Shown here: one piece after another, positions 44,569-62,783 of the stretch
How the letters are laid out: each line of letters begins with the position of its first letter
Numbering within the stretch: position 1 is the stretch's first letter
Origin: Cyanobium sp. ATX 6A2
GTDB lineage: Bacteria; Cyanobacteriota; Cyanobacteriia; PCC-6307; Cyanobiaceae
Reading direction: 5' to 3'
DNA: 64,000 nucleotides
Assembly (NCBI RefSeq): GCF_024346355.1
Contig: NZ_JAGQCU010000009.1
Location: 1-64,000 of the forward strand
Made by a program: the position numbers and the translations under genes
Notes under the pieces: model-generated
Told to the model about the DNA's origin: nothing
The model's input: only the letters and a program-made list of their open reading frames with translations
The model's database searches: none

Positions 44569-45144
44569 CTACGCAAACGCCAGCACCACGCCGGACACTG
44601 CGAGCACGGCTGCCACCACAACGGTCCAGCGGATGTGGGCCTGGCGCAGCACCCCATAGCTCACGGCCACCGCCAGGGTGGAGCCCAGGGCGGCCCCCAG
44701 CCACCAGCTGGCGCCGCCGCTGGCCTCCTGGCCGTGCAGCAGGGCGTGGACGGCGATGGCCAGGGCCACCAGGGTGCCGATGAGCCCCAGCCGCGGGCTG
44801 CGGCCGCTGCGCTGGCTGGCCAGGATCACCACCCCCAGGGCCGAGATCGCCAGGGCTGCAAGCAGTTCGGCGCCGGGCAGATCGCCGCCCAGGGAGCCCA
44901 CCACCGCTCCGGCCACGGCTCCCACCAGGGCAAAGAGCAGCACGGAGCCGCCCATGAAGGCGGCCACGCCACCCACGCCCACCAGCAGCAGCAGGTGGTC
45001 GAGACCGGTGATCGGGTGGCTGAAGCCGGTGCTGAAGCCGGCATCGGCGATGCCGTGGGCCTGGGCGGGCAGGCCGGAGAGCAGGCTCAGGCCCAGCCCT
45101 GCCGTCACCGGAAGGAGCAGGGGACGCAGGGTGGAGAAACGCAT
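44569..45144 (-). CDS. hupE: HupE/UreJ-type cobalt or nickel permease
   Basis: 191 residues, signal-like first segment then six membrane helices. FSHPITGLDHLLLLVGVGG holds the HP...GLDH metal-binding motif of HupE/UreJ. The cobalamin riboswitch in its leader points to Co2+ import for B12 rather than Ni2+ for hydrogenase or urease, none of whose genes are in the window. ATG start 45144. Lies downstream of the His-rich COG0523 gene on the same strand. Confidence 0.88.
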   Translation of the reverse strand: MRFSTLRPLLLPVTAGLGLSLLSGLPAQAHGIADAGFSTGFSHPITGLDHLLLLVGVGGVAAFMGGSVLLFALVGAVAGAVVGSLGGDLPGAELLAALAISALGVVILASQRSGRSPRLGLIGTLVALAIAVHALLHGQEASGGASWWLGAALGSTLAVAVSYGVLRQAHIRWTVVVAAVLAVSGVVLAFA

Positions 45145-45189
45145 GGAGAGGCCGGTCCGCGCCGGAAGGAATGGAGGTGAGGCGGGGGT

Positions 45190-45340
45190 GAGCGTTCTGG
45201 CTCAGGCGCGGGCCGGAGCGGCCGGGGCGCCATCACAGCTGCGGGACAGCGCCGGAGTGGGGATGGACTCCCGGCACCGGACTTTCCTCGTTGCCTTCCC
45301 GGGCTGAATCCGGGAAACCCTTGGCGCCATTATTGATGCA
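45190..45340 (-). promoter_or_regulatory. cobalamin riboswitch
   Basis: Read on the minus strand the leader contains GGAAAGTCCGGTG (45275-45287), then the B12-box-like GCTGTCCCGCAGCTGTGA (45233-45250), preceded by a TCCCGG ... CCGGGA hairpin (around 45297-45315). These are the conserved elements of adenosylcobalamin riboswitches in the right order. It ends about 45 nt before hupE, so binding of B12 would shut off hupE expression. The exact ends are estimated. Confidence 0.78.
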
Positions 45341-45383: not shown

Positions 45384-46514
45384 TCAGGCGAATCCCTTGC
45401 CGGCGTCCCTGGCCACGCAGGCCTGGAGCTGGCTGCGCAGTTTGGCGTGATCGAGGTCGCGGCCGATCAGCACCACGTTGTTCTTGCGCTGGTCGCTGGG
45501 CCAGTCGGAATCGTCGATCGAGAAGCGCTTGCCGGCCAGGTGGAACACGTGCCGGCGCGCGCTCTCGTTGAACCAGAGGATGCCCTTGGCCCGGAACACG
45601 CTCTCGGGGAGCTGGTTGTCGAGGAAGTGCTGGAACTTGCGCAGGGCGAAGGGGCCATCGGCGGCGAAGGAGAGCGAGGTGTAGCCCTCGATGGCGGCGT
45701 GATCGGGATGGGCGTCGTGGCTGTGGTCGTGGTGGGCGTGGCTGTGGGCGTGATCGTGATGGCTGTGCTCGTGCTCGTGCTCGCAGTGGCCGTGGTCGTG
45801 GTCGCAGGCGCTGTGGTCGAGGGCAGGATCGTTCTCGATGGAGTCGGCCACCACCCGGTCGCTCTCGAACAGCCCCACGCTGAGCAGCAGCGGCAGGGGC
45901 ACGGCGCCCTTCACCGAGCGCAGGATGCGGGCGTCGGTCTTGATCTGGCGCAGGCGGCTCTCGAGGGCTTTGAGCCGCTCCTCGGCCACCAGGTCGCACT
46001 TGTTGAGCAGGATCATGTCGCCGTACACGATCTGGGCCCGGGCCACCTCCCCCTCCAGCAGCTCGTCGCTGAAGTTCTCGGCATCCACCAGGGTGATGAT
46101 CGAATCGAGGCGGGTGGCATCGCGCAGGTCGCTGCCCAGGAAGGTCATGGCCACCGGCAGGGGATCGGCCAGGCCGGTGGTCTCCACCACCAGGTAGTCC
46201 ACCGGGTTGGGGCGCTCCAGGATCCGATACACGGCCTCCAGCAGCTCGCCGTTGATCGAGCAGCAGATGCAGCCGTTGCTCAGCTCCACCATGTCGTCGG
46301 CGGTGGCCACCACCAGGTCGTTGTCGATGCCGATCTCGCCGAACTCGTTCACCAGCACGGCGGTCTTGAGGCCCTCCTGGTTGCTGAGGATGTGGTTGAG
46401 CAGGGTCGTTTTGCCGGCCCCCAGAAAGCCGGTGAGGATGGTCACAGGCAGAGGCCTGGACTCGGCCTCGAGCGTGTCCTGCAGGGCAGGTGTGGCGGTG
46501 GTGCTGGACCCCAT
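45384..46514 (-). CDS. COG0523 (CobW/ZagA-like) GTPase with His-rich loop
   Basis: 376 residues: Walker [23 protein letters not shown], the CICC metal motif, [14 protein letters not shown] GTPase specificity, then an exceptionally His/Asp-rich stretch (DHDHGHCEHEHEHSHHDHAH and on, about 35 residues) and a CobW C-terminal domain. Such proteins are zinc or cobalt metallochaperones. A perfect Zur-like box lies 9 bp upstream, arguing for zinc; the downstream B12-controlled hupE leaves cobalt possible. Confidence 0.9.
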   Translation of the reverse strand: MGSSTTATPALQDTLEAESRPLPVTILTGFLGAGKTTLLNHILSNQEGLKTAVLVNEFGEIGIDNDLVVATADDMVELSNGCICCSINGELLEAVYRILERPNPVDYLVVETTGLADPLPVAMTFLGSDLRDATRLDSIITLVDAENFSDELLEGEVARAQIVYGDMILLNKCDLVAEERLKALESRLRQIKTDARILRSVKGAVPLPLLLSVGLFESDRVVADSIENDPALDHSACDHDHGHCEHEHEHSHHDHAHSHAHHDHSHDAHPDHAAIEGYTSLSFAADGPFALRKFQHFLDNQLPESVFRAKGILWFNESARRHVFHLAGKRFSIDDSDWPSDQRKNNVVLIGRDLDHAKLRSQLQACVARDAGKGFA

Positions 46515-46522
46515 GGCGGCGG

Positions 46523-46537
46523 CGAGAACGGTTCTCA
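46523..46537 (-). promoter_or_regulatory. Zur box D
   Basis: CGAGAACGGTTCTCA; the inner GAGAAC-G-GTTCTC is a perfect palindrome. It lies between the zur stop and the COG0523 start and fits the pattern of the other three boxes (Y-G-R-GAA-Y ... YCTCA). Close to the start codon, so either the transcript has a very short leader or the real start is further in. Confidence 0.7.
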
Positions 46538-46541
46538 GACG

Positions 46542-46988
46542 TTAGACAGACGGCGACGGGGTGGCCTGGCCGGCCACCTCGCCCACCTCAGTCTCACTCC
46601 GCCGCTGGCGGCGCTGGCAGTCGGGGCAGAGGCCGTAGAACTCCAGGGTGTGGAACAGGGGCAGGTAGCCCCGCAGTTCCTCGTCGTTGAGCTCCAGGGC
46701 ATGCACCGGACAGCGGTCGAGCCGGTGGGTCTGGCCGCAGTCCACACAGGTGAGGTGGTGTTCGTCGCGCTCGGTGGGGGCGAACAGGGCCTCGCCGCTG
46801 GGCAGATGGCGGCAGCGCACCCGGCCCCACTGCTGCAGCTGGCGCAGATGGCGATACACGGTGGCCAGTCCCATGGGGGTGGCGCTGGCCCGCAGGCAGG
46901 CGTGAAGATCCTGGCCCGAGAGCTCGCGTCCGGCGCGGCGCAGGGCCTCCAGCAGTTGTTCCTGACGGGAGCTGAGAGTGGTAGCCAC
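46542..46988 (-). CDS. zur: zinc-uptake regulator Zur (Fur family)
   Basis: 148 residues: helix-turn-helix (ATPMGLATVYRHLRQLQQWG), then ERDEHHLTCVDCGQTHRLD and FYGLCPDCQ, two CxxC zinc sites, and a His-containing sensor site. Zur type rather than Fur because of the short HH motif and the zinc-gene surroundings. The start is GTG 46988; a longer frame would overlap the upstream gene. It should repress genes behind the four boxes in this window. Confidence 0.85.
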   Translation of the reverse strand: MATTLSSRQEQLLEALRRAGRELSGQDLHACLRASATPMGLATVYRHLRQLQQWGRVRCRHLPSGEALFAPTERDEHHLTCVDCGQTHRLDRCPVHALELNDEELRGYLPLFHTLEFYGLCPDCQRRQRRSETEVGEVAGQATPSPSV

Positions 46989-47029: not shown

Positions 47030-48391
47030 CTAACCGGCCACCAGCCACTGGGCCCGCTTCACCGGCGCCTGCAGGGGCCGCAGCTCCAGGCTGGTGGCGT
47101 CGATCAGCACCGCCCGGGCCGGTGGTGGGGCGGCATCACCGCGGGCCCTGGGCCGCAGGGTGGTGAGCAGCTGATCGCCGGTGGCGTCCCAGTGCAGTCC
47201 GCTGCCGGGCTCCAGTTCCCAGCCGCTCAGGAGGCGCCGCCCCAGCTCGACGCCCTGCCGGTTCAGGGCCAGCAGGGTGAGGCGTGGCTCCACGCTGCCC
47301 TCCATCAGCAGGGCCCACACCCGATCGCCGCTGCGGCTGCAGGCGCTGGCCACCAGGGCCTGTTCGCCCAGCCATAACTGCTTCGGCGGCTGTCCCGGTT
47401 CCAGCAGCTCCAGCGAGCGGCGGAAGTCGGGCCAGTGGCGCTGCAGCAGGGCCCGCCCGGCCTGGGGGCAGAAGCTGCTCAGATCCCGGCTGCCCGGCAG
47501 GGTCTGGCGGCGCGGCGCCTGGGGCGGCAGGGTTTCCAGGTGCAGGCCATCGGTGTCGGGCACCACCACCGCGCCCCCCTCGGGCAGCAGCAGCATCGGT
47601 CCGCTGGCGCTCCAGGGCAGCCGCCGCCAGCGCCAGCCCCCGCCCCGCTGCAGCCGGGCCTGGCTGCTGCCGGGCTCCAGCTGGCCGCTCTGCACCAGCA
47701 GATCACCCTGGCGGTTGCTGCTCAGGTGGGCGAACAGCACCGGCCCGGCCTGCAGGGGCTGGGGGTCTTCGGCGCGCACCGCCTGGGTCGGCTCGTCGGC
47801 CGGCCGCAGGTTGCGCTGGCGCAGGGGAATGCGCCACAGCCGCAGCTGGCCGTCCGGTTCGCGGCTGGCGGCCGCCACCCCGGAGCCATCGCCGAGGGGC
47901 AGCACATGGGGGATCTCCGGCCACACCGGACTGATCGGCCGCCAGCTGCCGTCGTGCTCGCGCAGCTGCAGCTGCTCGCCGCCCGCCGCCCCCACCACCG
48001 CCAGCACCCGCGGGCGGGGATCCCAGTGCCAGCTGCTGGGCTGCAGGGTCAGGCCCCGTTCATCCCGCCCGGCCAGCTGCAGCTCCAGGGGGGCCTCGAT
48101 GCGCTGGCCCTCGGCGAGGCTGAGCAGCAGGTTGCTGCCGCTGCCCAGCCAGCTGTGGGCCAGGGGAGGGGTGAGGCGGCTGGCCTGCTGCAGGCTGGCG
48201 GCCTGCATCGGCCGGCTGAAGCGGGCCTGCAGGGCCGCCGGCCCGGAGCTGGCCGGGGCGTTGCCCAGCTCTTCGAGCTGTGGCGCCTGGCGCACCAGCA
48301 GCTGCTGCTGGGCCACCACCAGCAGGGCCGGCAGCCCCAGGGCCAGCAGCAGGGGCCGGGAGGGCCGGGGAAGGGAGGGAATGCCGGTCAT
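47030..48391 (-). CDS. membrane-anchored beta-propeller-like protein
   Basis: 453 residues: one N-terminal membrane anchor (PLLLALGLPALLVVAQQQLLV), a short Q/A-rich region, then repeated four-stranded blade-like units (DGQLRLWRIPL, GDLLVQSGQLEPG, DTDGLHLETLP, GDRVWALLMEG, GDQLLTTLRP), consistent with a periplasmic propeller. No recognised family. Its start overlaps the TIGR03943 stop, so it is the last gene of a coupled four-gene operon that opens with a Zur box. Confidence 0.72.
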   Translation of the reverse strand: MTGIPSLPRPSRPLLLALGLPALLVVAQQQLLVRQAPQLEELGNAPASSGPAALQARFSRPMQAASLQQASRLTPPLAHSWLGSGSNLLLSLAEGQRIEAPLELQLAGRDERGLTLQPSSWHWDPRPRVLAVVGAAGGEQLQLREHDGSWRPISPVWPEIPHVLPLGDGSGVAAASREPDGQLRLWRIPLRQRNLRPADEPTQAVRAEDPQPLQAGPVLFAHLSSNRQGDLLVQSGQLEPGSSQARLQRGGGWRWRRLPWSASGPMLLLPEGGAVVVPDTDGLHLETLPPQAPRRQTLPGSRDLSSFCPQAGRALLQRHWPDFRRSLELLEPGQPPKQLWLGEQALVASACSRSGDRVWALLMEGSVEPRLTLLALNRQGVELGRRLLSGWELEPGSGLHWDATGDQLLTTLRPRARGDAAPPPARAVLIDATSLELRPLQAPVKRAQWLVAG

Positions 48392-49065
48392 GGTTCCAGC
48401 GGGCGGGCCGGCCGGGGGATCGGCTGGTTGCGCTCGGGCACCACCTCCAGCTGCTTGTTCTGGATCGCCATGCGGCCCTCGATGGCCAGCCACTGATCGG
48501 CCCGGGGCAGGGGCTCGCCTGCGGGCCAGCGCACCGGCAGCCCCACCGGTGTGGCGTCCGCCAGGCAGCAGCGCACGAGCAGTCGGGCCAGCTGGGGCGG
48601 ACCCTCCGCCATAGGCAGCACGAAGCCGCTGATGCGCACCGGATCGCCCTCGAACAGCTGGGGATCGGGCTGGCTGCGCAGCATCCGCACCCAGTCAGTG
48701 AGGCTGCGCTGGGCCGGCGGCAGCACGAAGCTGAGGGTGTCGTTGCCGGTGTCGTCCGCCGGTCGCTGGCTGGCCAGATCGGCGAAGGAGGGATTGGCCG
48801 GCAGGGCGATGAGCAGCGCGGCGATCAGCGCCGTGGCCATACTCAGGCGGCGCTCCTGGCGGCTGGCGGGATCGGCGCCCTGGCCCCATTGCCGCACTCC
48901 CACCAGCACCTGCACCACCGCCAGCATCAGCAGCACGCCGCCGGCGCTGCTCACCAGGGGGTGGAAGGCGGCCCGCAGCAGCAGATCCAGCCGTCCGTCG
49001 ACGCTGCTCTGCAGCAGCACCACGGCCCACAGGCCCAGGGCCACGCCGCGGATCAGAGCCGCCAC
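48388..49065 (-). CDS. TIGR03943/DUF1980 (YcgQ-type) membrane protein
   Basis: 225 residues: two to three membrane helices, a charged loop, then a soluble domain with GFVLP, ARLLVRCCLADATPVGLPV and WLAIEGRMAI, the TIGR03943 signature. The paired Cys (RCC) may bind metal. In Bacillus the homologue YcgQ is encoded with the permease YcgR; both belong to the Zur regulon. Same pairing here. GTG start inside the permease gene (13-nt overlap). Confidence 0.82.
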   Translation of the reverse strand: MAALIRGVALGLWAVVLLQSSVDGRLDLLLRAAFHPLVSSAGGVLLMLAVVQVLVGVRQWGQGADPASRQERRLSMATALIAALLIALPANPSFADLASQRPADDTGNDTLSFVLPPAQRSLTDWVRMLRSQPDPQLFEGDPVRISGFVLPMAEGPPQLARLLVRCCLADATPVGLPVRWPAGEPLPRADQWLAIEGRMAIQNKQLEVVPERNQPIPRPARPLEP

Positions 49066-50027
49066 AGGTTCACCCACTGACCGATCAGCAGCACCAGCAC
49101 CCCGGAGCCGGCTGCCGTGAGCAGCAGCCCCTTGCCGCGGAACAGCAGGCTCAGCAGCCCCACCAGCTTGATGTCGATCACCGGGCCCAGCAGCAGGAAG
49201 GCCAGCAGGGCGCCGGGGGTGACCTGGGCGGCGAAGCCGAGGGCCAGGAAGGCGTCCACGCTCGAGCACACCGAAAGCACCAGGCTGAGGGCCATCAGGG
49301 CCACGATCGAGAGCGTGGGGGCGCCGCCCACCGCCAGCAGCCACTGGCGCGGCAGCGTCGCCTGCACCAGGGCGGCCACGGCGCAGCCGGCCACCAGCAG
49401 CAGGGCCAGGTTGAGGAACTCGCGACTGCCGTGGCGCAGCACCTCCTGCCAGCTGGACGGCAGCTGGCTGGGCAGGTTGGGGGGTGCGTCCTCGGGCAGG
49501 CCGATCACACCGGTGCGGCGCTCCAGCAGGCTGACGCTGGCCAGGGGCTGGTTGAGACGGCGCTCCTCCAGGAGATCCGTGCGCAGCAGGGTGGCCTCGG
49601 GCAGGAGGCGCAGCAGCAGGGCCAGACCCAGGGCCACCAGCACCGCCCCCGCCGGCCGCGCCAGCAGCAGCCAGGGTTGATCGGGGAACGCCGCCCAGGT
49701 GCTGGCGATCACGATCGGGTTGAGCACCGGCGCCGCGAACAGGAAGCCGAGAGCGGTGCCCACCGGCGCTCCCCCCACCAGCAGCCGCCGGGCCACCGGC
49801 ACATTGCCGCACTCGCAGGCGGGCAGGGCGAATCCGAGGGCCGCGCCGGTGAGCGGCCCGGCCACCGGGTGGTCGGGCAGACGGCGCAGCCAGGCGCCCC
49901 CGGGGCTGAACCAGCGGGCCAGCGAGGCGATCAGCACGCCGATCAGCAGGAACGGCAGGGCCTCCAGCAGCAGGCCCTGGAACAGGGCCCAGGCCGTGTT
50001 GAGGCGCGTCAGAACGGCGCTGGTCAT
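49053..50027 (-). CDS. UPF0718 (DUF318, YcgR-type) permease
   Basis: 324 residues, eight or so membrane segments with the family motif PACECGNVPVARRL and FLFAAPVLNPIVI, and a second half GPVIDIKLVGLL. The CECG pair is thought to be functional. The transported species is not known; homologues are linked to zinc control (YcgR) or to arsenic. Overlaps both neighbours, so it is in an operon with the FAD protein before and TIGR03943 after. Confidence 0.85.
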   Translation of the reverse strand: MTSAVLTRLNTAWALFQGLLLEALPFLLIGVLIASLARWFSPGGAWLRRLPDHPVAGPLTGAALGFALPACECGNVPVARRLLVGGAPVGTALGFLFAAPVLNPIVIASTWAAFPDQPWLLLARPAGAVLVALGLALLLRLLPEATLLRTDLLEERRLNQPLASVSLLERRTGVIGLPEDAPPNLPSQLPSSWQEVLRHGSREFLNLALLLVAGCAVAALVQATLPRQWLLAVGGAPTLSIVALMALSLVLSVCSSVDAFLALGFAAQVTPGALLAFLLLGPVIDIKLVGLLSLLFRGKGLLLTAAGSGVLVLLIGQWVNLWRL

Positions 50028-51301
50028 CGCTCCGGGGCTGCGCGCAGCGATTCTGCACCGCTCCCCAGGACGGTGGCCGATGCCGGGGGGCAGCGGTGCA
50101 GCAGGCCGGCCGTGATCCGCCGCGCCCCCTCCCGGCCGCCGTGGATGGTGGCCGCGGCCGGGCCCAGCTGCAGGGCGCTGAGGCCCCCCATCACGAACAC
50201 ACCCGCTCCGCCCCAGCCCAGCTCGGGGCTGAGCACGGGCCAGTCGTCCACCAGCTCCAGGGGCCGCTGCCGTTGGAGCTGCCGCAGCAGGGGCTGGTGG
50301 CTGACGCCCTGCTGATGGCCGGTGGCCAGCCAGATGCGCTCCACCGTCAGGGCGCTGCCATCGCTGCAGGCCACCTGCCAGTGGCTGCCGCCCCAGTGCA
50401 GCTGCCGCACCTCGATCTGTTCGTGCAGCCGCAGCCGGCCGCCGCGGCGGGCCTGCTCCAGCCGGTGGCGCACCTCGGGGGTGAGGGAGCCGCCGCCGCG
50501 GGCCTGCCGCACCAGCTGCCGGCGCCGCTGCCAGCTGGGTTCGGCTGCGAAGGCCTTGAGCCGCTTCGGGCCCAGCCAGCCCGGGTCGCTGTCGAAGGGC
50601 TGCGCCCGCAGCCGGCGGCGGCAGAGCAGCTCCACCGTTGCTCCCCGCTCCAGGGCGCCGAGGGCCAGATGGCCGCTGGTGAGGCCGCCTCCCACCACCA
50701 GCACGCGCTGCCCATCCAGCCGCCCCAGGGCGGGCAGGTTGAGTGTGCGGCTGTGCTGCAGCGCTGCTGGCGGATGCAGCGGCGGCAGATCCAGGGCCCA
50801 GGCCGGCCAGCGGGGCTCTCCCGGCCCGCAGGCCAGCACCAGCTGGCGGGCCTGCAGCCGCTCACCGCTGGCCAGGCTGAGCTCCAGGGGGCCGCTGCGG
50901 CAGGGAGCCAGCCGCAGCTCCCGCACCTGCCCGGGACGCACCAGGGCGGCCAGGTTCTCGCTGTCGATCAGCTGCTGGCAGAAATCGCTGAACAGGCCGG
51001 TGTGGGGCTGGCCGAAGGGGCCGTGCAGCTGGTGGCCGCGCCCCCGTCCGTGGGCGTAGTCGCGCAGGGCGTTGGGGTTGGGATGGGGATGGTGGGGGGC
51101 CGGCGAGCGCAGCATCGGCACCTCAAGGCGGTGCATCTGCCGGCGCCAGCGGCTGAGCCAGGCGCCGGCCGGATCGATCACCCGCAGGTGGCGCCGCCAG
51201 CGGGGCCGTTTGCGCAGCAGCTGGGCGCAGAGGCAGAGGGCCTGGGGCCCGGCGCCCACCACCACGATGGCCGCCCCGCCGGCGGTCAGCTCACAACCCA
51301 T
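50024..51301 (-). CDS. FAD/NAD(P)-binding oxidoreductase, N-hydroxylase-like
   Basis: 425 residues. Two dinucleotide folds: IVVVGAGPQALCLCAQLL (FAD) near residue 11 and VLVVGGGLTSGHLALGALE (NADPH) mid-way, with LATGHQ near the C-terminal third. This is the order of L-lysine/ornithine N-hydroxylases and related SidA/PvdA-like enzymes, but the substrate is unknown. Divergent from znuA across a shared Zur box; first gene of the permease/TIGR03943/propeller operon. Confidence 0.78.
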   Translation of the reverse strand: MGCELTAGGAAIVVVGAGPQALCLCAQLLRKRPRWRRHLRVIDPAGAWLSRWRRQMHRLEVPMLRSPAPHHPHPNPNALRDYAHGRGRGHQLHGPFGQPHTGLFSDFCQQLIDSENLAALVRPGQVRELRLAPCRSGPLELSLASGERLQARQLVLACGPGEPRWPAWALDLPPLHPPAALQHSRTLNLPALGRLDGQRVLVVGGGLTSGHLALGALERGATVELLCRRRLRAQPFDSDPGWLGPKRLKAFAAEPSWQRRRQLVRQARGGGSLTPEVRHRLEQARRGGRLRLHEQIEVRQLHWGGSHWQVACSDGSALTVERIWLATGHQQGVSHQPLLRQLQRQRPLELVDDWPVLSPELGWGGAGVFVMGGLSALQLGPAAATIHGGREGARRITAGLLHRCPPASATVLGSGAESLRAAPER

Positions 51302-51316
51302 GAAGCGGGCTCAATC

Positions 51317-51331
51317 TGGGAATCATTCTCA
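51317..51331. promoter_or_regulatory. Zur box A (znuA / FAD-operon divergent promoter)
   Basis: TGGGAATCATTCTCA, matching the other three boxes at all key positions. It sits in the 64-bp gap between the two divergent start codons, 16 bp from the FAD gene and 35 bp from znuA, so one site can repress both directions. Confidence 0.75.
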
Positions 51332-51365: not shown

Positions 51366-52352
51366 ATGCCCTCTCCCTTCCGCTCCCTGCTGGGGGGTGC
51401 CCCGCGGCTGCTGCTGGTGGCCGCCTCGGCCCTGGGCCTGCTGCTCGCCTCCTGCGCCCCTGCCACCGGCCCCGGCGCTGATGGAGGCCAGAACGGCGAG
51501 GCCAGCGGTGATCTCAAGGTGGTCACCACCTTCCTGCCGATCACCCTGTTCACCCGGGCGGTGGCCGCAGGCTGCGCCGAGGTGAGCGCCCTGATCCCCC
51601 CCAGCACCGGTCCCCACGATTTCCAGTCGCGCCCCGGCGATCTGGTGGCCCTGCGCGAGGCCCAGGTGCTGGTGAAGAACGGTCTGGAGGTGGAGGACTT
51701 CCTCGACAAGCTGGTGGAGTCGGCGGAGAACCCCGAGCTCACGGTGATCGACAGCAGCCGCGGCGTGGCCACCATCGAGAGCGACGACCACGGCCACAGC
51801 CAGGGCCACAGCCATGGCCACAGCCACGGGGCGGTGAACCCCCACATCTGGCTGGATCCCCAGCGGGCCGTGCAGCAGGTGGAGAGCATCCGTGATGGCC
51901 TCGTGGCTGCCGACCCCAGCTGCGCCGATGGCTACCGCCGCAACGCCGAGGCCTACATCGCCGAGCTGCGGGCTCTGGATGAGGTCATCGCCGCCGAGCT
52001 GGCCCCGTTCAGCGGCAAAACCTTCGTGGCCTTCCACGATTTCGCCCCCTACTTCGCCGAGCGTTACAACCTCAAGGCGGAGTTTGTGGTGGATGTGCCC
52101 GCGATGAATCCCACCCCCGCCGACCTGCGCCGGGTGAGCGAGATCGTGGAGCGCAGCGACCTGCGGGCCCTGCTCAGCGAACCCCAGGAGGGCAACCGGT
52201 CGTTCAATGCCCTGGCCAGGGATCTGGGGGTGCGCGTGAGCGTGTTTGATCCCCTGGAAACCGGCTCGGAGGAGGACGCCCGCGATCCATCCACCTACCT
52301 GCGGGTGATGCGCGGCAACGTGGAGGAGCTGCGCCAGGCCTTCGCGGGCTGA
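51366..52352 (+). CDS. znuA: zinc ABC transporter binding lipoprotein ZnuA
   Basis: 328 residues: lipoprotein signal (LGLLLASC), then VVTTFLPITLFTRAVA, GPHDFQSRPGDL (first His ligand), KNGLEVEDFLDKL, a His-rich loop (DDHGHSQGHSHGHSHG), NPHIWLDP (second His) and FVAFHDFAPYFAERY (third His), the ZnuA set for zinc. It feeds ZnuCB, whose genes are 5 kb away. ATG start. Zur box directly upstream. Confidence 0.93.
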   Translation: MPSPFRSLLGGAPRLLLVAASALGLLLASCAPATGPGADGGQNGEASGDLKVVTTFLPITLFTRAVAAGCAEVSALIPPSTGPHDFQSRPGDLVALREAQVLVKNGLEVEDFLDKLVESAENPELTVIDSSRGVATIESDDHGHSQGHSHGHSHGAVNPHIWLDPQRAVQQVESIRDGLVAADPSCADGYRRNAEAYIAELRALDEVIAAELAPFSGKTFVAFHDFAPYFAERYNLKAEFVVDVPAMNPTPADLRRVSEIVERSDLRALLSEPQEGNRSFNALARDLGVRVSVFDPLETGSEEDARDPSTYLRVMRGNVEELRQAFAG

Positions 52353-52447: not shown

Positions 52448-53449
52448 TTGCCCTTCCAGCTTTCCCACCCGTGTGGCCGCCAGCGGCCGGCGCCGCGAAG
52501 GCCCCGCCATGGGCTCGCCGCCACCCGCTGGGCTGGGGCGTTGTTGGCCCTGCTGCTCACAGGCTGCGGCGCTCCCGGGGCCGGGCCAGACCGCGCTGAC
52601 GGCGGCACCGACGGCAAGGACCGTCCCCTGGTGCTCACCAGCTTCACCGTGCTGGCCGACATGGCGTCCGAGGTGGCCTGCGGCCAGTTGCGGGTTGAGT
52701 CGATCACCCGGCCGGGCGCCGAGATCCACAGCTATGAGCCCACCCCCAGCGATCTGCGCCGCGCCCAGGACGCCCAGCTGGTGCTGATCAATGGCCTCAA
52801 TCTGGAGCTCTGGGCGCAGCGCTTCCTGGCCAGCGCCACCGCCGCCGAGCGGGCCGTGGTGAGCGAGGGTGTGACGCTGATCCCGATCAGCTCGGACGCC
52901 GGCGCCGGCAAGCCCAACCCCCATGCCTGGATGTCACCGCTGCAGGCGCGCACCTATGTGGCCAACATCCGCGAGGCCTTCATCCGCCTCGATCCCGCCA
53001 ACGCCGACACCTACCGCGGCTGTGCAGCCGACTACAACGCCCAGCTGGAGGCCCTGGATGGGGAGCTGCGTGAGCAGCTGGCGGTGCTGCCTCCCGAACG
53101 CAGGCTGCTGGTGAGCTGTGAGGGTGCCCTCAGCTACATGGCGGCCGACTACGACCTGGAGGAGGCCTACCTCTGGCCGGTGAACGCGGAGTCGGAGGTC
53201 ACTCCCCAGCGCATGGAACGGGTGATCCGCACGGTGCGGCAGCGGCAGGTGCCGGCGGTGTTCTGTGAGAGCACGGTGGACGACAGGTCCCAGCGGCGGG
53301 TGGCCGAGGAGACCGGCGCCCGCTTCGGCGGGGTGTTCTACGTGGATTCTCTGTCGGAGCCCGATGGTCCGGCGCCCACCTATCTCGACATGCTCCGCCA
53401 CAACGCCGACACCCTGGTGCAGGGTCTCCGTGCCGATGGCCAGGGCTGA
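52448..53449 (+). CDS. mntC: manganese ABC transporter binding lipoprotein MntC
   Basis: 333 residues: lipobox LLLTGC, then SFTVLADMASEVACG, HSYEPTPSD (H ligand), NPHAWMSP (H), SCEGALSYMAADY (E) and CESTVDDR (D). The two-His, Glu, Asp set is that of manganese-binding MntC/PsaA, distinct from the three-His ZnuA. TTG start at 52448 is the only in-frame start before the signal region. It overlaps the ATPase gene by 14 nt. Confidence 0.85.
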   Translation: MPFQLSHPCGRQRPAPRRPRHGLAATRWAGALLALLLTGCGAPGAGPDRADGGTDGKDRPLVLTSFTVLADMASEVACGQLRVESITRPGAEIHSYEPTPSDLRRAQDAQLVLINGLNLELWAQRFLASATAAERAVVSEGVTLIPISSDAGAGKPNPHAWMSPLQARTYVANIREAFIRLDPANADTYRGCAADYNAQLEALDGELREQLAVLPPERRLLVSCEGALSYMAADYDLEEAYLWPVNAESEVTPQRMERVIRTVRQRQVPAVFCESTVDDRSQRRVAEETGARFGGVFYVDSLSEPDGPAPTYLDMLRHNADTLVQGLRADGQG

Positions 53450-54221
53450 GCGCCACCTGGATCACGTGCCCGCCGCCGCAGGCAGGGTGCCTGGCATCGC
53501 CGTGGACAACCTCACGGTGGGTTACAACGGCCGGCCGGCGGTGGTGGATGTGAGCCTGGAGCTGAGCTCCGGCAGCATCTGCGCCCTGGTGGGCATGAAC
53601 GGGGCCGGCAAGTCCACCCTGTTCAAGGCGTTGATGGGCTTCCTCAAGCCCAGCAGCGGCAGCATTCGCATCGCCGGCAGCGGCCTGCGCCAGGCCCAGC
53701 GCCGCCAGCTGGTGGCCTACGTGCCCCAGAGCGAGCAGGTGGACTGGGACTTCCCGATCCGCGTGTGGGATGTGGTGATGATGGGCCGCTACGGCGCCAT
53801 GGGGCTGCTGCGCTGGCCCTCGGCCGATGACCGGCGCCAGGTGCGGCGCGCCCTCGAGCGCGTTGACCTCTGGCCCCTGCGGCAGCGCCAGATCGGTGCC
53901 CTCTCCGGCGGCCAGCGCAAGCGGGCCTTCCTGGCCCGGGCCCTGGCCCAGGGAGCCCGGGTGCTGCTGCTCGATGAGCCCCTCAGCGGCGTGGACATCA
54001 GCACCGAGCGGCTGATCATCGACCTGCTGATCGAGTTGCGCGACCAGGGCGCCACCGTGCTGCTGGCCACCCACGATCTGGAGTCGATTCCCAGCTTCTG
54101 CGACCGGGTGGTGCTGATCAACCGCACCGTGCTGGCCTACGGCGACACCTCGGAGGTGTTCACCCAGGCCAACCTGCTGCGCACCTTCACCACCCCAGCC
54201 CCTGCGGCCCCCAACCTCTGA
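53436..54221 (+). CDS. mntA: manganese ABC transporter ATPase
   Basis: 261 residues: Walker A GMNGAGKSTL, Q-loop YVPQSEQVDWDFPI, signature LSGGQRKRAFLAR, Walker B VLLLDEPLSGVD, switch ATHDLES. Mn/Zn/Fe-type ATPase of the MntA class. The ATG start lies inside mntC and its stop abuts the permease start, so mntCAB is one operon. A Walker A Asn (MNGAGKS) is normal for the family. Confidence 0.9.
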   Translation: MARAERHLDHVPAAAGRVPGIAVDNLTVGYNGRPAVVDVSLELSSGSICALVGMNGAGKSTLFKALMGFLKPSSGSIRIAGSGLRQAQRRQLVAYVPQSEQVDWDFPIRVWDVVMMGRYGAMGLLRWPSADDRRQVRRALERVDLWPLRQRQIGALSGGQRKRAFLARALAQGARVLLLDEPLSGVDISTERLIIDLLIELRDQGATVLLATHDLESIPSFCDRVVLINRTVLAYGDTSEVFTQANLLRTFTTPAPAAPNL

Positions 54222-55066
54222 TGGACCTCCTGCTGGCACCGCTGCTGCAGCCGATGGAGATGGTGTTCATGCAGCGGGCCCTGGCCATCGGCGTGGTGGT
54301 GGCGGTGGTGTGCGCGGTGCTCTCCTGCTTCATGACCCTCAAGGGCTGGGCCCTGATGGGCGATGCGGTGTCCCATGCCGTGCTGCCCGGCGTGGTGATC
54401 GCCTACGCCCTGGGCCTGCCCTTCGCCCTGGGCGCGTTCGTGTTCGGCGTGGGCTCGGTGGGGGTGATCGGCACCATCAAGCAGCACACCCGTGTCAAGG
54501 AGGACACGGTGATCGGGCTGGTGTTCACCGGCTTCTTCGCCCTGGGGCTGGTGCTGATCTCCAAGATTCGCAGCAGCGTTGACCTCACCCACATCCTGTT
54601 CGGCAACCTGCTGGGCATCACCGACGCCGACCTGGTGCAGACCCTGGTGATCAGTGCGGTGTGCTTGCTGGTGCTGCTGCTGCTGCGCCGCGATCTGCTG
54701 CTGTTCTGCTTCGATCCCACCCACGCCCGCACCATCGGGCTGAACACCGGGGTGCTGCACTACCTGCTGCTCACGCTGGTGAGCCTCACCGCCGTGGCCG
54801 GCCTGCAGACCGTGGGCATCATCCTGGTGGTGGCGATGCTGGTGACGCCTGGGGCCACGGCCTATCTGCTCAGCGACCGCTTCGATCGCATGACCTGGCT
54901 GGCCGTGCTTTCGGCGGTGAGTGCCACGGTGCTGGGGATCTATGCCAGCTACTGGTTCGATGCCTCCACGGCCGGCTGCATCGTGGTGGTGCAGACGCTG
55001 CAGTTTCTGCTGGTGATGGTGCTGGCCCCCCGGCACGGCCTGCTGGCACGGCGGCGTTCGCCCTGA
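54221..55066 (+). CDS. mntB: manganese ABC transporter permease
   Basis: 281 residues, eight membrane segments of the ABC-3 family: GDAVSHAVLPGVVIAY, ILFGNLLGI, FDPTHARTIGLNT and IILVVAMLVTPGATAYLL. Partner of MntC and the ATPase, bringing Mn2+ for photosystem II. The start overlaps the ATPase stop. Confidence 0.9.
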   Translation: MDLLLAPLLQPMEMVFMQRALAIGVVVAVVCAVLSCFMTLKGWALMGDAVSHAVLPGVVIAYALGLPFALGAFVFGVGSVGVIGTIKQHTRVKEDTVIGLVFTGFFALGLVLISKIRSSVDLTHILFGNLLGITDADLVQTLVISAVCLLVLLLLRRDLLLFCFDPTHARTIGLNTGVLHYLLLTLVSLTAVAGLQTVGIILVVAMLVTPGATAYLLSDRFDRMTWLAVLSAVSATVLGIYASYWFDASTAGCIVVVQTLQFLLVMVLAPRHGLLARRRSP

Positions 55067-55115: not shown

Positions 55116-55130
55116 CGGGAACGATCCTCA
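55116..55130 (+). promoter_or_regulatory. Zur box B (COG0523 / WD40 genes)
   Basis: CGGGAACGATCCTCA, 13 bp before the COG0523 start. Same pattern as boxes A, C and D. It is the weakest palindrome of the four but keeps GGGAA and CTCA. Confidence 0.6.
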
Positions 55131-55143
55131 TTCCAGACCCGGC

Positions 55144-56127
55144 ATGGCCTTCTCCACCGCCGTCCCCGCCGGCGAGCGCCTGCCGGTGACCGTGCTCACC
55201 GGCTACCTCGGCGCCGGCAAAACCACGCTGCTCAACCGCATCCTCACCCATGAGCACGGCCTCAAGGTGGCGGTGATCGTGAATGAATTCGGCGAGGTGG
55301 GTATCGACAATCAGCTGGTGATTGATGCCGATGAGGAGATCTTCGAAATGAATAACGGCTGCATCTGTTGCACCGTTCGTGGCGATCTGATCCGCATCAT
55401 CGGCAATCTCATGAAGCGCCGTGATCGCTTCGACCACCTCGTGATTGAAACCACCGGTCTGGCGGATCCCGCCCCCGTGATCCAGACCTTCTTCGTCGAC
55501 GACGACCTGCGCGATGAGTTGCGGCTCGATGCAGTGGTGACCCTGGTGGATCTGCGCCACGTGCTGCAGCACTGGCAGGCCGACGAGGTGCAGGAGCAGC
55601 TGGCCTTTGCCGATGTGCTGCTGCTGAACAAGGCCGATCTCGTGGACGAGGCCGAGCGGGCGGCGATCGAGCAGCGGGTGCGGGCGATCAACCCGATGGC
55701 GCGGCTGCTCACCAGCACCAACGCCGATGTGCCGATGCAGCAGATTCTCGGGGTGGAGGCCTTCGAACTGGAGCGGGCCCTGAGCCTGGACCCCGGCTTC
55801 CTGGTCGACGACCACGACCATGAGCACGACGCAACGGTGGGCTCACTGGCGCTGGTGGAGGAGCGGCCCATGGATCTTGACAAGCTCGGCAGCTGGCTCT
55901 CCGAGTTGGTGGCGCAGCGCGGCCCCGACCTGTTCCGGATGAAAGGGATCATCCAGCTGGCCGGTGAAGACTGCCGCTACGTGTTCCAGTCGGTGCACAT
56001 GCTGCTCGACGGTGACTTCGATCGCCCCTGGAAACCAGGCGAGCGGCGGCGCACCGAATTCGTGATCATCGGCCGCGATCTCGATGCCGCTGGCCTGCGG
56101 GCGGGCTTCGCCGCCTGTGGGGCCTGA
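55144..56127 (+). CDS. COG0523 zinc-type GTPase metallochaperone
   Basis: 327 residues: [26 protein letters not shown] motif, [14 protein letters not shown], then a short His loop (DDHDHEHDA) and CobW C-terminal domain. Smaller His loop than the 45.4-kb paralogue. Zur-controlled members of this family deliver zinc to client proteins under shortage. The WD40 gene follows 6 bp later and is probably co-transcribed. Confidence 0.9.
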
Positions 56128-56133
56128 GCGGGT

Positions 56134-57186
56134 ATGGCAGCTGAGCCGGTGCTGGTGAACGAGCAGCTCAGTGGGGCGCTGCAGCAGCCGATCACGGCGC
56201 TGGCCTGGAGCCCGGATGGGGAGTTGGTGGCCATCGCCAGTGGTGGCGGTGAGCTGCTGCTGCTGGATTTCCGGGCGGGTTGCGAGGAACTCCTGCGCGG
56301 CGACCGCGACCAGAGCCTCGATGCCATCGGCTTCAGCAGCGACGGCCAGTTCCTGATGGCTGTGGGACAGGCCGGCGAGCTGCTGCTCTGGGAACTGGGC
56401 GGCAGCGGTGTGCGGCCCCTGGCCCTTGAGCCCCTCGCCCTCGGCGCCGGCTGGCTGGATGCGGCGGCGTGGCGGCCTTTGGGCCTGCTGCTGGCGGTGG
56501 CGGCGGGCCGTGAGGTGCGGCTCTGGGATGGGGCCAGCCGCCAGTGGTGCCCCCAGGTGCTCGATCTTCCCGGCACGGTGCAGGCCCTGGCCTGGAGCGC
56601 CGATGGCGCGCTGATGGCCGCCAGCTGCAACGGCGAGCTGGCCCTGTGGCAGCCCCTGGCCTCCCCAGCCCCGCCGCCGTTTCGTCTGGCCACCGCTTCG
56701 GCAGGGCTGGGGCTGGCCTTCTCGCCCCGGGCTGGGCTGCTGGCTGCTGGCCAGATGGACCGCTCGCTGCTGCTGTGGCCGGAGCTTGGCCAGGGCACCC
56801 CCTGGCAGTTCAGTGGCTTTCCGGCCAAGGTGCGCCTGCTCGCCTGGAGTGATCAGCTGGGCTCGCTGGCGCCGCCCCTGGCTGTGGCGTCGGGCGACAC
56901 CGTGGTGCTCTGGAGCCAGCACGACACCGGCTCCCGCGGCTGGCGACCGCAACCCCTGCTCTGGCATGGAGCCCGGGTGAATGCTCTGGCCTTCGCCCCC
57001 GGCCGCCCGCTTCTGGCCACGGCCTCCGGCGATGGCACGGTGGCGCTCTGGGATGGCAACGGCGCCCTGCGTCAGTCGCTGGAGGGGGATGGCCAGGGCT
57101 TCAATGCCCTGGCCTGGCGGCCCGATGGCCAGCACCTCCTGGCTGGGGGCGATCAGGGGCGCTGGTGGCTGTGGCCGGTGGCGTAG
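56134..57186 (+). CDS. WD40-repeat protein
   Basis: 350 residues, seven WD-like blades: ITALAWSPDGELVAIASGGG, IGFSSDGQFLMAVGQAG, VQALAWSADGALMAASCNG, VNALAFAPGRPLLATASGDG, FNALAWRPDGQHLLAGG, each ending in a W-like strand. No signal peptide, so cytoplasmic. A WD40 scaffold behind a Zur-box COG0523 gene may be the metallochaperone's partner or client adaptor; this is inferred from linkage only. Confidence 0.88.
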   Translation: MAAEPVLVNEQLSGALQQPITALAWSPDGELVAIASGGGELLLLDFRAGCEELLRGDRDQSLDAIGFSSDGQFLMAVGQAGELLLWELGGSGVRPLALEPLALGAGWLDAAAWRPLGLLLAVAAGREVRLWDGASRQWCPQVLDLPGTVQALAWSADGALMAASCNGELALWQPLASPAPPPFRLATASAGLGLAFSPRAGLLAAGQMDRSLLLWPELGQGTPWQFSGFPAKVRLLAWSDQLGSLAPPLAVASGDTVVLWSQHDTGSRGWRPQPLLWHGARVNALAFAPGRPLLATASGDGTVALWDGNGALRQSLEGDGQGFNALAWRPDGQHLLAGGDQGRWWLWPVA

Positions 57187-57223: not shown

Positions 57224-57238
57224 TGAGAATCGTTCTCA
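57224..57238 (+). promoter_or_regulatory. Zur box C (znuCB)
   Basis: TGAGAATCGTTCTCA: six-base arms TGAGAA/TTCTCA around TCG, the most symmetric of the four boxes. It lies 103 bp before the znuC ATG and just after the WD40 gene. Confidence 0.75.
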
Positions 57239-59138: not shown

Positions 59139-59440
59139 CAGCCCAGGGGAGGCGGGTTGATTCAGTGTGCTGGCGGGCGACGACCGCGGCTGATCCGATT
59201 GCACAGCAGCGTGTGCCATTTGTTGCTCGGCACCGCCACCGGTGCCATGGATCACGCTCTCTTCACGATTTCTTCGCGCCCGCGGGTTGGGCGATCCGTT
59301 AGAAGAGTTTATGGACATGTTGCGCCATTCTCAGCCCAGCTTTCAACGTAGCAGTGTCGTTGCAGGGCTGCCTTGGGTGCTGCTCAAATGTTGATAGCCC
59401 GCACTGTTTTAGAGTTCTCCCAGTTTTATACACCCCACCG
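59139..59440. other. 302-bp divergent promoter region
   Basis: Between the small leftward gene and ferritin. Contains AT-rich segments near the ferritin start (for example TTTTATACA around 59424-59432), too close to the ATG for a normal -10. No Fur-type box like that at 62.8 kb is seen here. Confidence 0.45.
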
Positions 59441-59962
59441 ATGCAAGATCTCACCCAGGCCATCAACAGCCACCTCGCGTCCGAATTCCAGGCCAGCCAC
59501 ACCTATCTGGCGATGTCGATCTGGCTGCGGGAGAAGGATCTTGCCGGCTTCTCGCAGTACATGCTCGAGAAGAGCAATGAGGAGCGGGGCCATGCCGCCC
59601 GCATGATTTCCTACCTGGTGGATTGCGATGAGCCGGTGGAGCTGCCCACCATCGAAGCTCCGGAGCGCAGCTGGCCCTCGGTGCAGCAGCTGTTCGATCG
59701 GGTGTTCGAGATGGAGAAGCAGGTCACCGCCTCGATCAACGGCCTCTACTCCCTGGCCGAGGAGGCGGGCGAGCGCAGCGCCTCAGCGATGCTCGACTGG
59801 TTTGTGAACGAGCAGATCCAGGAGGAGGCGGAAGCCCGCTTCGTGCTCAAGCGGCTGCGGCTGGCCGGCGACAACAGCGCCGCCCTGTTGCTGCTCGACC
59901 AGCAGTTCCTCGAGGGCAATGCCCTGGCCCACGTGAAGACGGGCATCCCAGGGGGGCGCTGA
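59441..59962 (+). CDS. ftn: ferritin (FtnA-like)
   Basis: 173 residues, four-helix bundle: SHLASEFQASHTYLAMSIWL with the first ferroxidase Glu and Tyr, EKSNEERGHAARM with the ExxH pair, and a C-terminal WFVNEQIQEEAEARFVLKRL with further ligands. Stores iron after Fe2+ oxidation. Start at the ATG of MQDLTQA. feoB follows 7 bp later, so Fe2+ import and storage are probably co-expressed. Confidence 0.92.
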   Translation: MQDLTQAINSHLASEFQASHTYLAMSIWLREKDLAGFSQYMLEKSNEERGHAARMISYLVDCDEPVELPTIEAPERSWPSVQQLFDRVFEMEKQVTASINGLYSLAEEAGERSASAMLDWFVNEQIQEEAEARFVLKRLRLAGDNSAALLLLDQQFLEGNALAHVKTGIPGGR

Positions 59963-59969
59963 TCTCCCC

Positions 59970-61799
59970 GTGACCCAGGCTCCAGCCCTCACGGTGGCCC
60001 TGGTGGGCATGCCCAACACCGGCAAGTCCACCCTCTACAACCGCCTCACCGGCGGCCATGCGGTGATCGCCAACTGGCCCGGGCTCACGGTGGAGCTGCT
60101 GCGCGGGGCGATGCCGGCCGACCGCCGGGGGCAGCGCTACACCCTGGTGGATCTGCCCGGCATCCACGACCTCAGCGGCAGCAGTGAAGATGAGGCGGTG
60201 GTGCAGCGCTTTCTGCGCCACACGCCTCCGGCGCTGCTGCTGGTGGTGGTGAACGCCAGTCAGATCGCCAATCAGCTGCGCTTCGTGCTGCAGATGCGCC
60301 AGCAGGGGTTTCCCATGGTGGTGGCCCTGAACATGAGCGATGAGTCGAGACAGCTGGGCATCGGCATCGACCACCAGCGGCTCAGCGTCGAGCTGGGCCT
60401 GCCGGTGCTGCCGATCAGCGCCAAGCGCAATCAGGGCATCCATGACCTGGTCGATGCCGTGCACCAGCTCGGCGAGCGGCTCCCCGCCGCCGCCCGGCCC
60501 CAGCCCGCTGATCGGCCCCAGGTCTGCGCGGAGGATCTCGATGCCCAGGCCGAAGCGCTGGCCGCCTCCGCCGTCACCATGCCGGAGCGGCTGATCAACC
60601 GCGGCACCCGCCGGGCGGATCGCCTGCTGATGCATCCCGTGGTGGGCCTGGTGGCCTTTCTGGGGATCGTGCTGGCGATGTTCCAGCTGCTCTATGCCGT
60701 GGGCGCGCCGCTGCAGGATCTGCTTGGCCACCTGATCGACCGGACCCAGACGGCCGTGCTGGAGCCGCTGCTGGCCGCTCTCGGTGCTCCGGAGTTTGTG
60801 CGCGGCTTTCTGGTGGATGGGGTGTGGCTGGGCGTGGGCACGGTGGCCACGTTCCTGCCGATCATCTTTCTCTTCTACGTGATCATGGCGGTGGTGGAGG
60901 ATTCGGGCTATCTGCCCCGCGCCGCCTTCCTGATGGACGGCTTCATGCGCTGGCTGGGGCTTGATGGCCGGGCCTTCGTGCTGCAGGTGATGGGCTTCGG
61001 CTGCAATGTGCCCTCGATCATGGGCACCCGGGTGATCCGGGATCGCGGCATGCGGCTGCTGGCCATGCTCTGCATTCCCTTCTCGCTCTGCCAGGCCCGC
61101 CTCACGGTGTTCATCTTCATGGCGGCGGTGTTCTTTCCGCGGCCCTGGTGGGCACCGGGCCTGGTGGTGTTCAGCTTTTACGTGCTCAGTTTCCTGGCGG
61201 CGGTGATCACCGGCCTGGTGTTCCAGCGCGCCTTCCCCAGCCGCGAGGCCTTCATTCTCGAACTGCCGCCCTATCGCTCCCCGAGCGTGGCCACGATCCT
61301 GCGCCGCGGCTGGACCTCGATGCTCAATTTCCTGGTGACCACGCGCGTGTTGATTGTGGTGGGGGCAGCGGCCATCTGGCTGCTCACCCACCTGCCGCCA
61401 GGGGCGGTGCAGGGCTCGGGCGACACCATCGCCGATGCCATCGGTGCGTTCTTCCAGCCCGTGCTGGGACCGATCGGCATGAATCCATCCCTCACCGTGT
61501 CGCTGTTTTTCGGCTTCATCGCCAAGGAGATCCTGCTGGGGGCGATGGCGGTGATCTATGCCACCAGCGAAACCGATCTGGGTGGTGTGATCAGCCAGAC
61601 GATCACCCCCCTGCAAGCCCTGAGCTTCATGACCTTCGTGCTGCTCTACACCCCTTGCCTGGGAACGGTGGCTGCCCAGTTGCAGGAATCAAAAAGCCGC
61701 AGGTTCACCCTGCTGTCCCTGGGCTGGTCGCTGGCTCTGGCCTGGATTCTGGCCTTTGTGGTGTTTCAGGGAGGGCGCTTGTTTCACCCTGTCGCCTGA
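59970..61799 (+). CDS. feoB: ferrous iron transporter FeoB
   Basis: 609 residues: N-terminal G domain (G1 GMPNTGKST, G3 DLPGIHDL, G4-like NMSD), GDI-like spacer, then two gate domains with about eight membrane segments (YLPRAAFLMD, GCNVPSIMGTR, and LYTPCLGTVAA). Shorter than the E. coli protein (773). GTG start. It imports Fe2+. Unlike the usual feoA-feoB operon, feoA is convergent here. Confidence 0.95.
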   Translation: MTQAPALTVALVGMPNTGKSTLYNRLTGGHAVIANWPGLTVELLRGAMPADRRGQRYTLVDLPGIHDLSGSSEDEAVVQRFLRHTPPALLLVVVNASQIANQLRFVLQMRQQGFPMVVALNMSDESRQLGIGIDHQRLSVELGLPVLPISAKRNQGIHDLVDAVHQLGERLPAAARPQPADRPQVCAEDLDAQAEALAASAVTMPERLINRGTRRADRLLMHPVVGLVAFLGIVLAMFQLLYAVGAPLQDLLGHLIDRTQTAVLEPLLAALGAPEFVRGFLVDGVWLGVGTVATFLPIIFLFYVIMAVVEDSGYLPRAAFLMDGFMRWLGLDGRAFVLQVMGFGCNVPSIMGTRVIRDRGMRLLAMLCIPFSLCQARLTVFIFMAAVFFPRPWWAPGLVVFSFYVLSFLAAVITGLVFQRAFPSREAFILELPPYRSPSVATILRRGWTSMLNFLVTTRVLIVVGAAAIWLLTHLPPGAVQGSGDTIADAIGAFFQPVLGPIGMNPSLTVSLFFGFIAKEILLGAMAVIYATSETDLGGVISQTITPLQALSFMTFVLLYTPCLGTVAAQLQESKSRRFTLLSLGWSLALAWILAFVVFQGGRLFHPVA

Positions 61800-61812
61800 G
61801 GCTGAGCCTCAG
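61796..61812. terminator. 17-bp palindrome over feoB and feoA stops
   Basis: CTGAGGCT-G-AGCCTCAG, perfect 8-bp arms. It covers the feoB TGA (61797-61799) and the feoA stop (61809-61811). As both RNAs could fold it, it may act as a bidirectional end signal; a one-base loop and no T-run make a standard terminator doubtful, and a protein site or cruciform is possible. Confidence 0.45.
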
Positions 61813-62030
61813 ACACTCACCTCCATCTCGGCGGCATGTTCGTGGCGGATCATGAATTCCATGATGCCGCAGGCCACATGCAGGATGCCTCCCGGCTGGC
61901 CGCGTCGCAGCACCTGAACCCGGGCTCCTGGCTTGATCCCGATCGCCATCAGGCGGGCCTGAATGCTGGGCTGCGAGGGCAGCGATTCAATGCAGATGGA
62001 ACAACCTGCTGGAGCGGCGCTCAGGGGCAT
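61809..62030 (-). CDS. feoA: FeoA-domain protein
   Basis: 73 residues: LMAIGIKPGARVQVLRRGQPGG and the following HVACGIMEFMIRHEHA form the SH3-like FeoA fold. Helps FeoB by an unknown contact. An N-terminal pair CSIC is extra and could bind metal. ATG start. Convergent to feoB and not upstream of it. Confidence 0.9.
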   Translation of the reverse strand: MPLSAAPAGCSICIESLPSQPSIQARLMAIGIKPGARVQVLRRGQPGGILHVACGIMEFMIRHEHAAEMEVSV

Positions 62031-62085
62031 GGACTGGGGTGATCTATGGCTTCACCCTAGGCGCATACCGTTGTGCGAAGCGGCC

Positions 62086-62688: not shown

Positions 62689-62783
62689 CGGACGAGGTAT
62701 GGGCAGGGTTTCGTGTACCAAATGTTACAGGCGTCTGTGATGGTTGGTGGGCTGATGGTGTGTGCGATTTCGACCACCGGATT

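Follow-up and report, generated by a model that had tools for sequence, protein, structure and literature searches.

The window analysed here, a stretch of 64,000 nucleotides from Cyanobium sp. ATX 6A2 (contig NZ_JAGQCU010000009.1, positions 1–64,000), contains a five-gene directon on the minus strand, which runs from a gene for a flavin adenine dinucleotide (FAD)/NAD(P) enzyme, referred to below as the FAD gene, through genes for a UPF0718 permease, a TIGR03943 protein and a beta-propeller protein to zur. The first four open reading frames (ORFs) span 47030–51301 and overlap successively by 4, 13 and 4 nt, and zur starts with a GTG at 46988, 41 nt past the propeller gene on the same strand; the directon therefore comprises at least five genes. 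Next after zur on the minus strand comes a COG0523 gene, preceded by a Zur box of its own, and from 51366 the plus strand encodes two ZnuA-type proteins, znuC- and znuB-like products, a second COG0523 protein, a WD40-like product and then a second zinc-type ATP-binding cassette (ABC) pair; some of these plus-strand names were assigned by inspection (Table 1). The preliminary description of this DNA had reported a four-gene minus-strand chain opening at a Zur box common to znuA, and the ORFs, the overlaps and the box were all found as reported.

The common box lies 15 nt ahead of the FAD ATG and 34 nt ahead of znuA. Scanning the 64 kb with a weight matrix revealed four boxes of at least 14 bits (17-mers from 46522, 51316, 55115 and 57223), each preceding zinc genes, and ten Markov-1 shuffles of the window yielded none at this threshold. 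Since the matrix was seeded with the window-box consensus and partly trained on FAD upstream sequences including that of the window, its score is circular for the window box. In the organism's own genome (3.0 Mb), five sites had at most one mismatch, three of which lie in the window ahead of zinc genes; 29 sites had at most two mismatches, compared with 12 for a reversed control pattern, and two-mismatch sites are therefore mostly noise. The Zur control and zinc setting proposed for the row are supported at the sequence level by the box at the promoter and the zinc genes around it, and so is the assignment of the FAD promoter to a Zur regulon on the strength of its box.

Table 1 Features of the zinc island in the window
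Feature	Position	Strand	Basis
FAD/NAD(P) flavoprotein, predicted N-hydroxylating-monooxygenase fold	50024-51301	-	PF13454, PF13434, PvdA structural match
UPF0718/ArsP_1 permease	49053-50027	-	PF03773 188.9 bits; CEC and CSS motifs invariant
TIGR03943 partner	48388-49065	-	TIGR03943 142.7 bits; GTG start at 49065 by own reading
Membrane helix, small beta domain and beta-propeller (predicted)	47030-48391	-	Model pLDDT 91.4; structural propeller matches
zur	46542-46988	-	FUR 54.6 bits; GTG start by own reading
COG0523 GTPase, His-rich	45384-46514	-	cobW 193.7 bits
znuA-like binding protein, divergent from FAD	51366-52352	+	PF01297 238 bits
Second ZnuA-type binding protein	52448-53449	+	PF01297 279 bits
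znuC-like ATPase	53436-54221	+	ORF; name by inspection
znuB-like permease	54221-55066	+	ORF; name by inspection
Second COG0523 GTPase	55144-56127	+	cobW 206.2 bits
Zur box common to FAD and divergent znuA	51317-51331		1 mismatch to palindrome; 24.0 bits
Second Zur box, ahead of COG0523 gene	46523-46537		19.5 bits
Third Zur box, ahead of second COG0523	55116-55130		16.6 bits
Perfect Zur box ahead of second zinc-type ABC pair	57224-57238		0 mismatches; 25.6 bits

A genome scan returned at least 521 relatives of the FAD gene, of which the best 80 were studied (hereafter named loci). By title, these are cyanobacterial except for one contig labelled Candidatus Gracilibacteria (L143), which may be a misbinned cyanobacterial contig, and 78 of them have upstream sequence. 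A Zur box of at least 14 bits was present within 320 bp upstream of FAD in 55 of the 78, and in 12 further loci with the order zur–FAD the box was located in the spacer between COG0523 and zur (11 at ≥14 bits, one at 13.5 bits). Boxes of ≥14 bits, direct or via zur, accompany FAD in 66/78 named loci, compared with 35/800 random windows of the same loci in which the real boxes were left, about five of the 80 loci being apparently from the same genomes as those used in training the matrix. The neighbours within 8 kb of FAD in the 80 loci included COG0523 (36), metallophosphoesterase (29), ZnuA (18), HemB (16), Zur (13) and FolE (9), where the metallophosphoesterase, HemB and FolE clusters were named by inspecting one sequence each. 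The metallophosphoesterase and a small P-loop protein (26/80 loci) recur beside the FAD gene (for example, L122 8045–8854, L180 2383–3950 and L141 1889–2668). According to PMC4628125, a zur mutant of PCC 7002 derepresses hemB-II, folE-II, G0131 and G0132, the last annotated as 'FAD-dependent oxidoreductase'. The pAQ7 homologue of PCC 7002, which is 42.7% identical to the window FAD protein, has an 18.6-bit box and lies in a hemB–folE cluster; gene order and product point to its being G0132.

The FAD gene was also present beyond cyanobacteria, in a plasmid collection searched with the window protein (19 records) and its Pseudalkalibacillus relative (20 records). A Pseudalkalibacillus plasmid contains the row COG0523, UPF0718, TIGR03943, FAD, whose products match those of the window with pairwise E values of 6e-43 (permease), 5e-7 (TIGR03943) and 2e-51 (FAD), and in Metabacillus the FAD gene is followed by COG0523 and an S14 gene without CxxC. 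Three of four tested Bacillota plasmid relatives carry Bacillus-type Zur boxes, located 24, 16 and 23 bp ahead of FAD in Metabacillus, Pseudalkalibacillus and Staphylococcus, respectively. Markov controls did equally well in 0, 1 and 3 of 1000 cases, and random windows of the same Bacillota loci gave 30/2100 at two mismatches. Such boxes were also located ahead of both COG0523 genes and the Pseudalkalibacillus permease. One Priestia permease has a box with two mismatches (3/1000 controls) and a second Priestia plasmid a three-mismatch site (35/1000), and no such box was found at the S14 or TIGR03943 starts or at the Priestia plasmid's second permease. Among haloarchaeal plasmid records, of which 8 of 10 were opened (all but Haloarcula rara and a further Haloferax record), metal-type ABC genes, GTP-binding proteins or S14 lie beside FAD in Haloferax LR2-5, Halorubrum, Halorientalis, Natrialba, Natronosalvus, Halovenus and Haloarcula halophila, unlike in Salinigranum, whose record showed none of these neighbours. 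The COG0523-type CxCC motif was checked in Haloferax alone, and five S14 sequences inspected beside FAD (Metabacillus and several haloarchaea) contain no CxxC pair.

The FAD enzyme had been described as N-hydroxylase-like, and modelling bears this out for the fold. Its predicted structure (pLDDT 84.7) was matched over the whole length by N-hydroxylating monooxygenases, which made up 50 of the 50 Foldseek matches listed, and PvdA was superposed with Z 32.3 and a root-mean-square deviation of 3.2 over 370 aligned residues. Bacillithiol disulfide reductase and flavin monooxygenases of other kinds reached Z 27–28.5, and a sequence profile ranked Baeyer–Villiger monooxygenases and reductases ahead of PvdA (1.2e-8), so that N-hydroxylation is only a candidate chemistry for the enzyme. 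The match to PF13454 (51.4 bits, cut-off 21.8) was stronger than that to PF13434, the N-hydroxylating monooxygenase family, whose cut-off was passed narrowly (22.9 versus 21.3 bits). Across domains, 21 FAD sequences show no variation at R65, S66, H71, W242, R260, R268 and A326-T327-G328. The GxGPxxL and ATG motifs are common to this protein and the N-hydroxylating monooxygenases.

The permease is the sole PF03773 match in its own genome (188.9 bits, cut-off 32.3), and the CEC and CSS motifs are invariant in 41 UPF0718 sequences. The TIGR03943 protein (142.7 bits, cut-off 88.8) has N-terminal membrane segments followed by a soluble domain with a CC pair, which is invariant in 24/24 sequences and constitutes the two Cys of the window protein. 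Pseudalkalibacillus keeps CC and CEC, with CSS reading CSE there. Synechococcus elongatus and Bacillus subtilis each possess TIGR03943 as well as PF03773 genes. The propeller protein had no Pfam or NCBIfam match at E 0.1; its model (pLDDT 91.4) consists of a membrane helix (12–34), a beta domain and a propeller, so that the membrane-anchored propeller of the preliminary description is upheld by predicted structure. Structural matches to the propeller were generic, with TolB topping Foldseek at TMq 0.4 and VIA-align placing other propellers first, and an identification as TolB was set aside, the similarity being of a generic propeller kind.

UPF0718, TIGR03943 and propeller genes were found together in all 41 fetched picocyanobacterial loci, and without FAD in 40 of them. 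These loci had been hand-picked for genus spread from 164 TIGR03943-bearing genomes among 300 of the family. FAD heads this trio only in the window, G012 and L112 among the loci examined, and the idea of one conserved four-gene unit was not sustained: the row is two modules, FAD and UPF0718–TIGR03943–propeller. Among 99 genomes including its own, FAD was matched in 17 (near full length in 13), and the full four-gene row was restricted to the window and G012, the latter being the same contig as PLM2.Bin73 and L091; L112 is the third cyanobacterial case. Across the class, TIGR03943 was present in 209/242 genomes and a propeller-profile match in 139/242, many of the latter being weak or partial and some away from TIGR03943; of 22 TIGR03943-centred loci outside the family (L199 and L202–L222), 14 showed an adjoining UPF0718 gene and 8 a propeller gene. 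In the 41 trio loci, zur was located within 8 kb in 32, and zur, znu or COG0523 in 35 by a strict count or in 38 by a lenient count that takes ABC ATPase matches (none in L050, L073 and L084), both counts being inflated by relatedness. A box directly ahead of UPF0718 was found in 5 of 42 genes (one at 12.8 bits), with the window and L020 having theirs via FAD. The trio thus probably has a zinc role within this family, though own boxes are few; outside the family, where the link fades, such a role would be conjectural.

In WH8102, synw0973 is derepressed together with znuA (PMC9337993). Gene order in the marine genomes L064, L078, L080 and L081 suggests that synw0973 may be the propeller gene, but WH8102 itself was not found, and L063, the fifth marine genome opened, has another gene order. 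Alternatively, transcripts running on from the convergent znuA gene could account for the derepression. In the same four loci, a His/Gly-rich gene after znuA converges on or faces the propeller gene and, by its order, may be WH8102 synw0972, which the same source lists as Zur-responsive. The main text of the ZepA exoprotein paper mentions no permease, FAD, flavin or oxidase.

With moderate confidence, we read the whole locus as a Zur-repressed zinc-starvation directon made together with ZnuABC, in which a metal path would be joined to an FAD oxygenase of the zinc-sparing response. From the gene order and co-orientation, the boxes, the families, the predicted folds and the cross-lineage association, we infer repression, metal hand-over and oxygenation as follows. 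Low zinc would take Zur off the common box, and ZnuABC and the directon would then be made together. TIGR03943 and UPF0718 may together make up a single metal path in the inner membrane. A metal, most likely Zn2+, would pass along it from the invariant Cys-Cys of the former to the invariant Cys-x-Cys of the latter, and the anchored propeller is a putative periplasmic docking part. The FAD enzyme would be a cytosolic NADPH- and O2-dependent N- or S-oxygenase; its substrate, most likely a small amine or thiol compound, would be altered such that zinc is freed or spared, and the enzyme would not assemble a secreted metallophore.

Several results weigh against this reading. No box was found by either route in 11 of the 78 named FAD loci, and FAD and trio are joined in only three cyanobacterial cases. 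For 37/42 picocyanobacterial UPF0718 genes, the adjacent 200 bp yielded no box scoring more than 12 bits, although two of these, the window and L020, have one via FAD. Box scores for the UPF0718 genes examined outside the family did not exceed 5.8 bits, and a zur-like neighbour occurs in one of the 22 TIGR03943-centred loci. The TIGR03943 loci of Pontibacillus and Enterococcus contained neither a Bacillus-type box nor a zinc gene, two distant FAD relatives had no zinc gene nearby, the one of them scanned for boxes, Salimicrobium (24% identity), had no such box, and the Staphylococcus copy has the box with no zinc neighbour.

The alternative that survives best, possible in our judgement though not probable, is that the FAD enzyme replaces some zinc enzyme without itself requiring zinc, as do the HemB2, FolE2 or S14 paralogues of zinc-starvation gene sets, and is unrelated to transport. 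Its occurrence with HemB (16/80 loci) and FolE (9/80), and with S14 lacking CxxC in Metabacillus and several haloarchaea, is consistent with such a role; however, family profile searches found the FAD protein to be no paralogue of a known zinc enzyme, and it is joined to UPF0718–TIGR03943 in two phyla.

Rather doubtful is export of Cu/Zn by the permease pair, as by Shewanella SO_0444, with the zinc neighbourhood reflecting a balancing of uptake. Export is a live rival because the related permease confers Cu/Zn tolerance: Shewanella requires SO_0444 to grow when stressed by Zn or Cu (PMC3219624). A Priestia pair adjoins copper genes, and two B. anthracis boxes lie upstream of the -35, where they were read as activation (PMC6336718). 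The window permease does match NF033936 (SO_0444 Cu/Zn efflux), but at 79.3 bits it falls far below the cut-off of 300, and the box of the window, so close to the row's first start codon and common with znuA, is in the position of a repressor.

A chance neighbourhood, in which the trio, with a housekeeping function in the envelope, and FAD, as a mobile gene, landed beside znu and zur, seems improbable: the full row is rare and the trio has little zinc link in the rest of the class, but the Pseudalkalibacillus and L112 rows and the 35 to 38 of 41 family trio loci near zinc genes, even if inflated by relatedness, argue against it.

A secreted metallophore is unlikely because searches of the own genome found no IucA/C synthetase (PF04183) of the nonribosomal peptide synthetase (NRPS)-independent siderophore type and no TonB-dependent receptor barrel (PF00593), families that control genomes match in 2 and 3 of 14. 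By inspection of one representative each, no siderophore-assembly family was recognised among neighbour clusters present in at least 6/80 FAD loci, and metallophore synthesis was dropped as the main idea with receptor barrels, synthetases and recognisable partner enzymes not found. A metallophore operon, in which the N-hydroxylase makes a zinc ligand exported by UPF0718, is favoured by the fold of the FAD protein, by four NRPS condensation domains on another contig and by three cyanobacterial plasmid FAD copies near ExbB/ExbD or TonB genes; we nevertheless rate it very unlikely, the trio being also common without FAD. Of the role proposed in the preliminary description, making or exporting a small metal-binding molecule is disfavoured, whereas zinc handling at the envelope may still apply.

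Returning to the zinc-starvation directon, the FAD family appears to be a zinc-starvation gene common to cyanobacteria, Bacillota and haloarchaea, and is probably a widespread, unstudied part of microbial survival without zinc; no function for it was found in the open-licence papers searched. A more far-reaching reading, offered with low confidence, is a cross-domain system in which the N-hydroxylase-fold flavoenzyme and COG0523 GTPases, joined in some lineages by UPF0718–TIGR03943, would liberate zinc through oxygenation of its thiol or amine ligand. If true, zinc would be mobilised by a redox route, of which no instance was found in the same literature. The family can be tested in PCC 7002, since a zur response has already been published there, and for the UPF0718–TIGR03943 pair, which has streptococcal phenotypes and no known function, the recurring zinc link offers a first testable substrate.

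Other features of the window adjoin this system. The WD40-like propeller gene (56134–57186, plus strand) lies directly 3' of the second COG0523 gene, and its product may be an unstudied COG0523 partner; a WD40 gene was near FAD in 22/80 named loci, and L022 and L023 have one behind COG0523. A Cobalamin riboswitch (RF00174, 39.5 bits) at 45170–45337 on the minus strand precedes a HupE/UreJ gene (44569–45144), which probably encodes a cobalt or B12-linked transporter. Beside the zinc island, a FeoB-like gene is flanked by two ferritin-like genes (59354–62721, names by inspection).

Known systems offer comparisons for parts of the directon. TolB and other extracytoplasmic propellers resemble the window protein in having a propeller behind a membrane or signal segment, a generic similarity at a TMq of about 0.4. 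PvdA, SidA, KtzI and DesB share the predicted fold of the FAD protein over its whole length (Z 29–32), and differ in sequence (about 16% identity), in the FAD family's own invariants and in that the FAD gene has no recognised siderophore genes nearby. SO_0444 has the same kind of permease profile, with the window permease far under its NF033936 cut-off, and a ZntR-like regulator (PMC3219624). The ScfA/ScfB (YcgR/YcgQ) pair, as given in PMC5584981, is of the UPF0718 and TIGR03943 type, as in the window. In B. anthracis, Zur binds in vitro DNA upstream of the ArsP_1-type permease gene BAS1632; the same primer pair is listed for a fragment of yciC, a COG0523 gene, and the two therefore seem to share an upstream region, for which regulation was inferred to be positive (PMC6336718). 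This binding agrees in part with the placement of YcgR/YcgQ in the Bacillus Zur regulon by the preliminary description, whereas a term search of the main text of the B. subtilis Zur-site paper (PMC4324032) gave no mention of ycgR or ycgQ. The ScfA/ScfB/BAS1632 unit, in the parts of these sources that describe it, includes no propeller, FAD or zur gene. Although it has no adjoining UPF0718–TIGR03943 pair, the SYNPCC7002_G0132 system resembles the window in its homologous FAD protein, in its zinc-sparing neighbourhood and, by the zur mutant transcriptome, in Zur control (PMC4628125).

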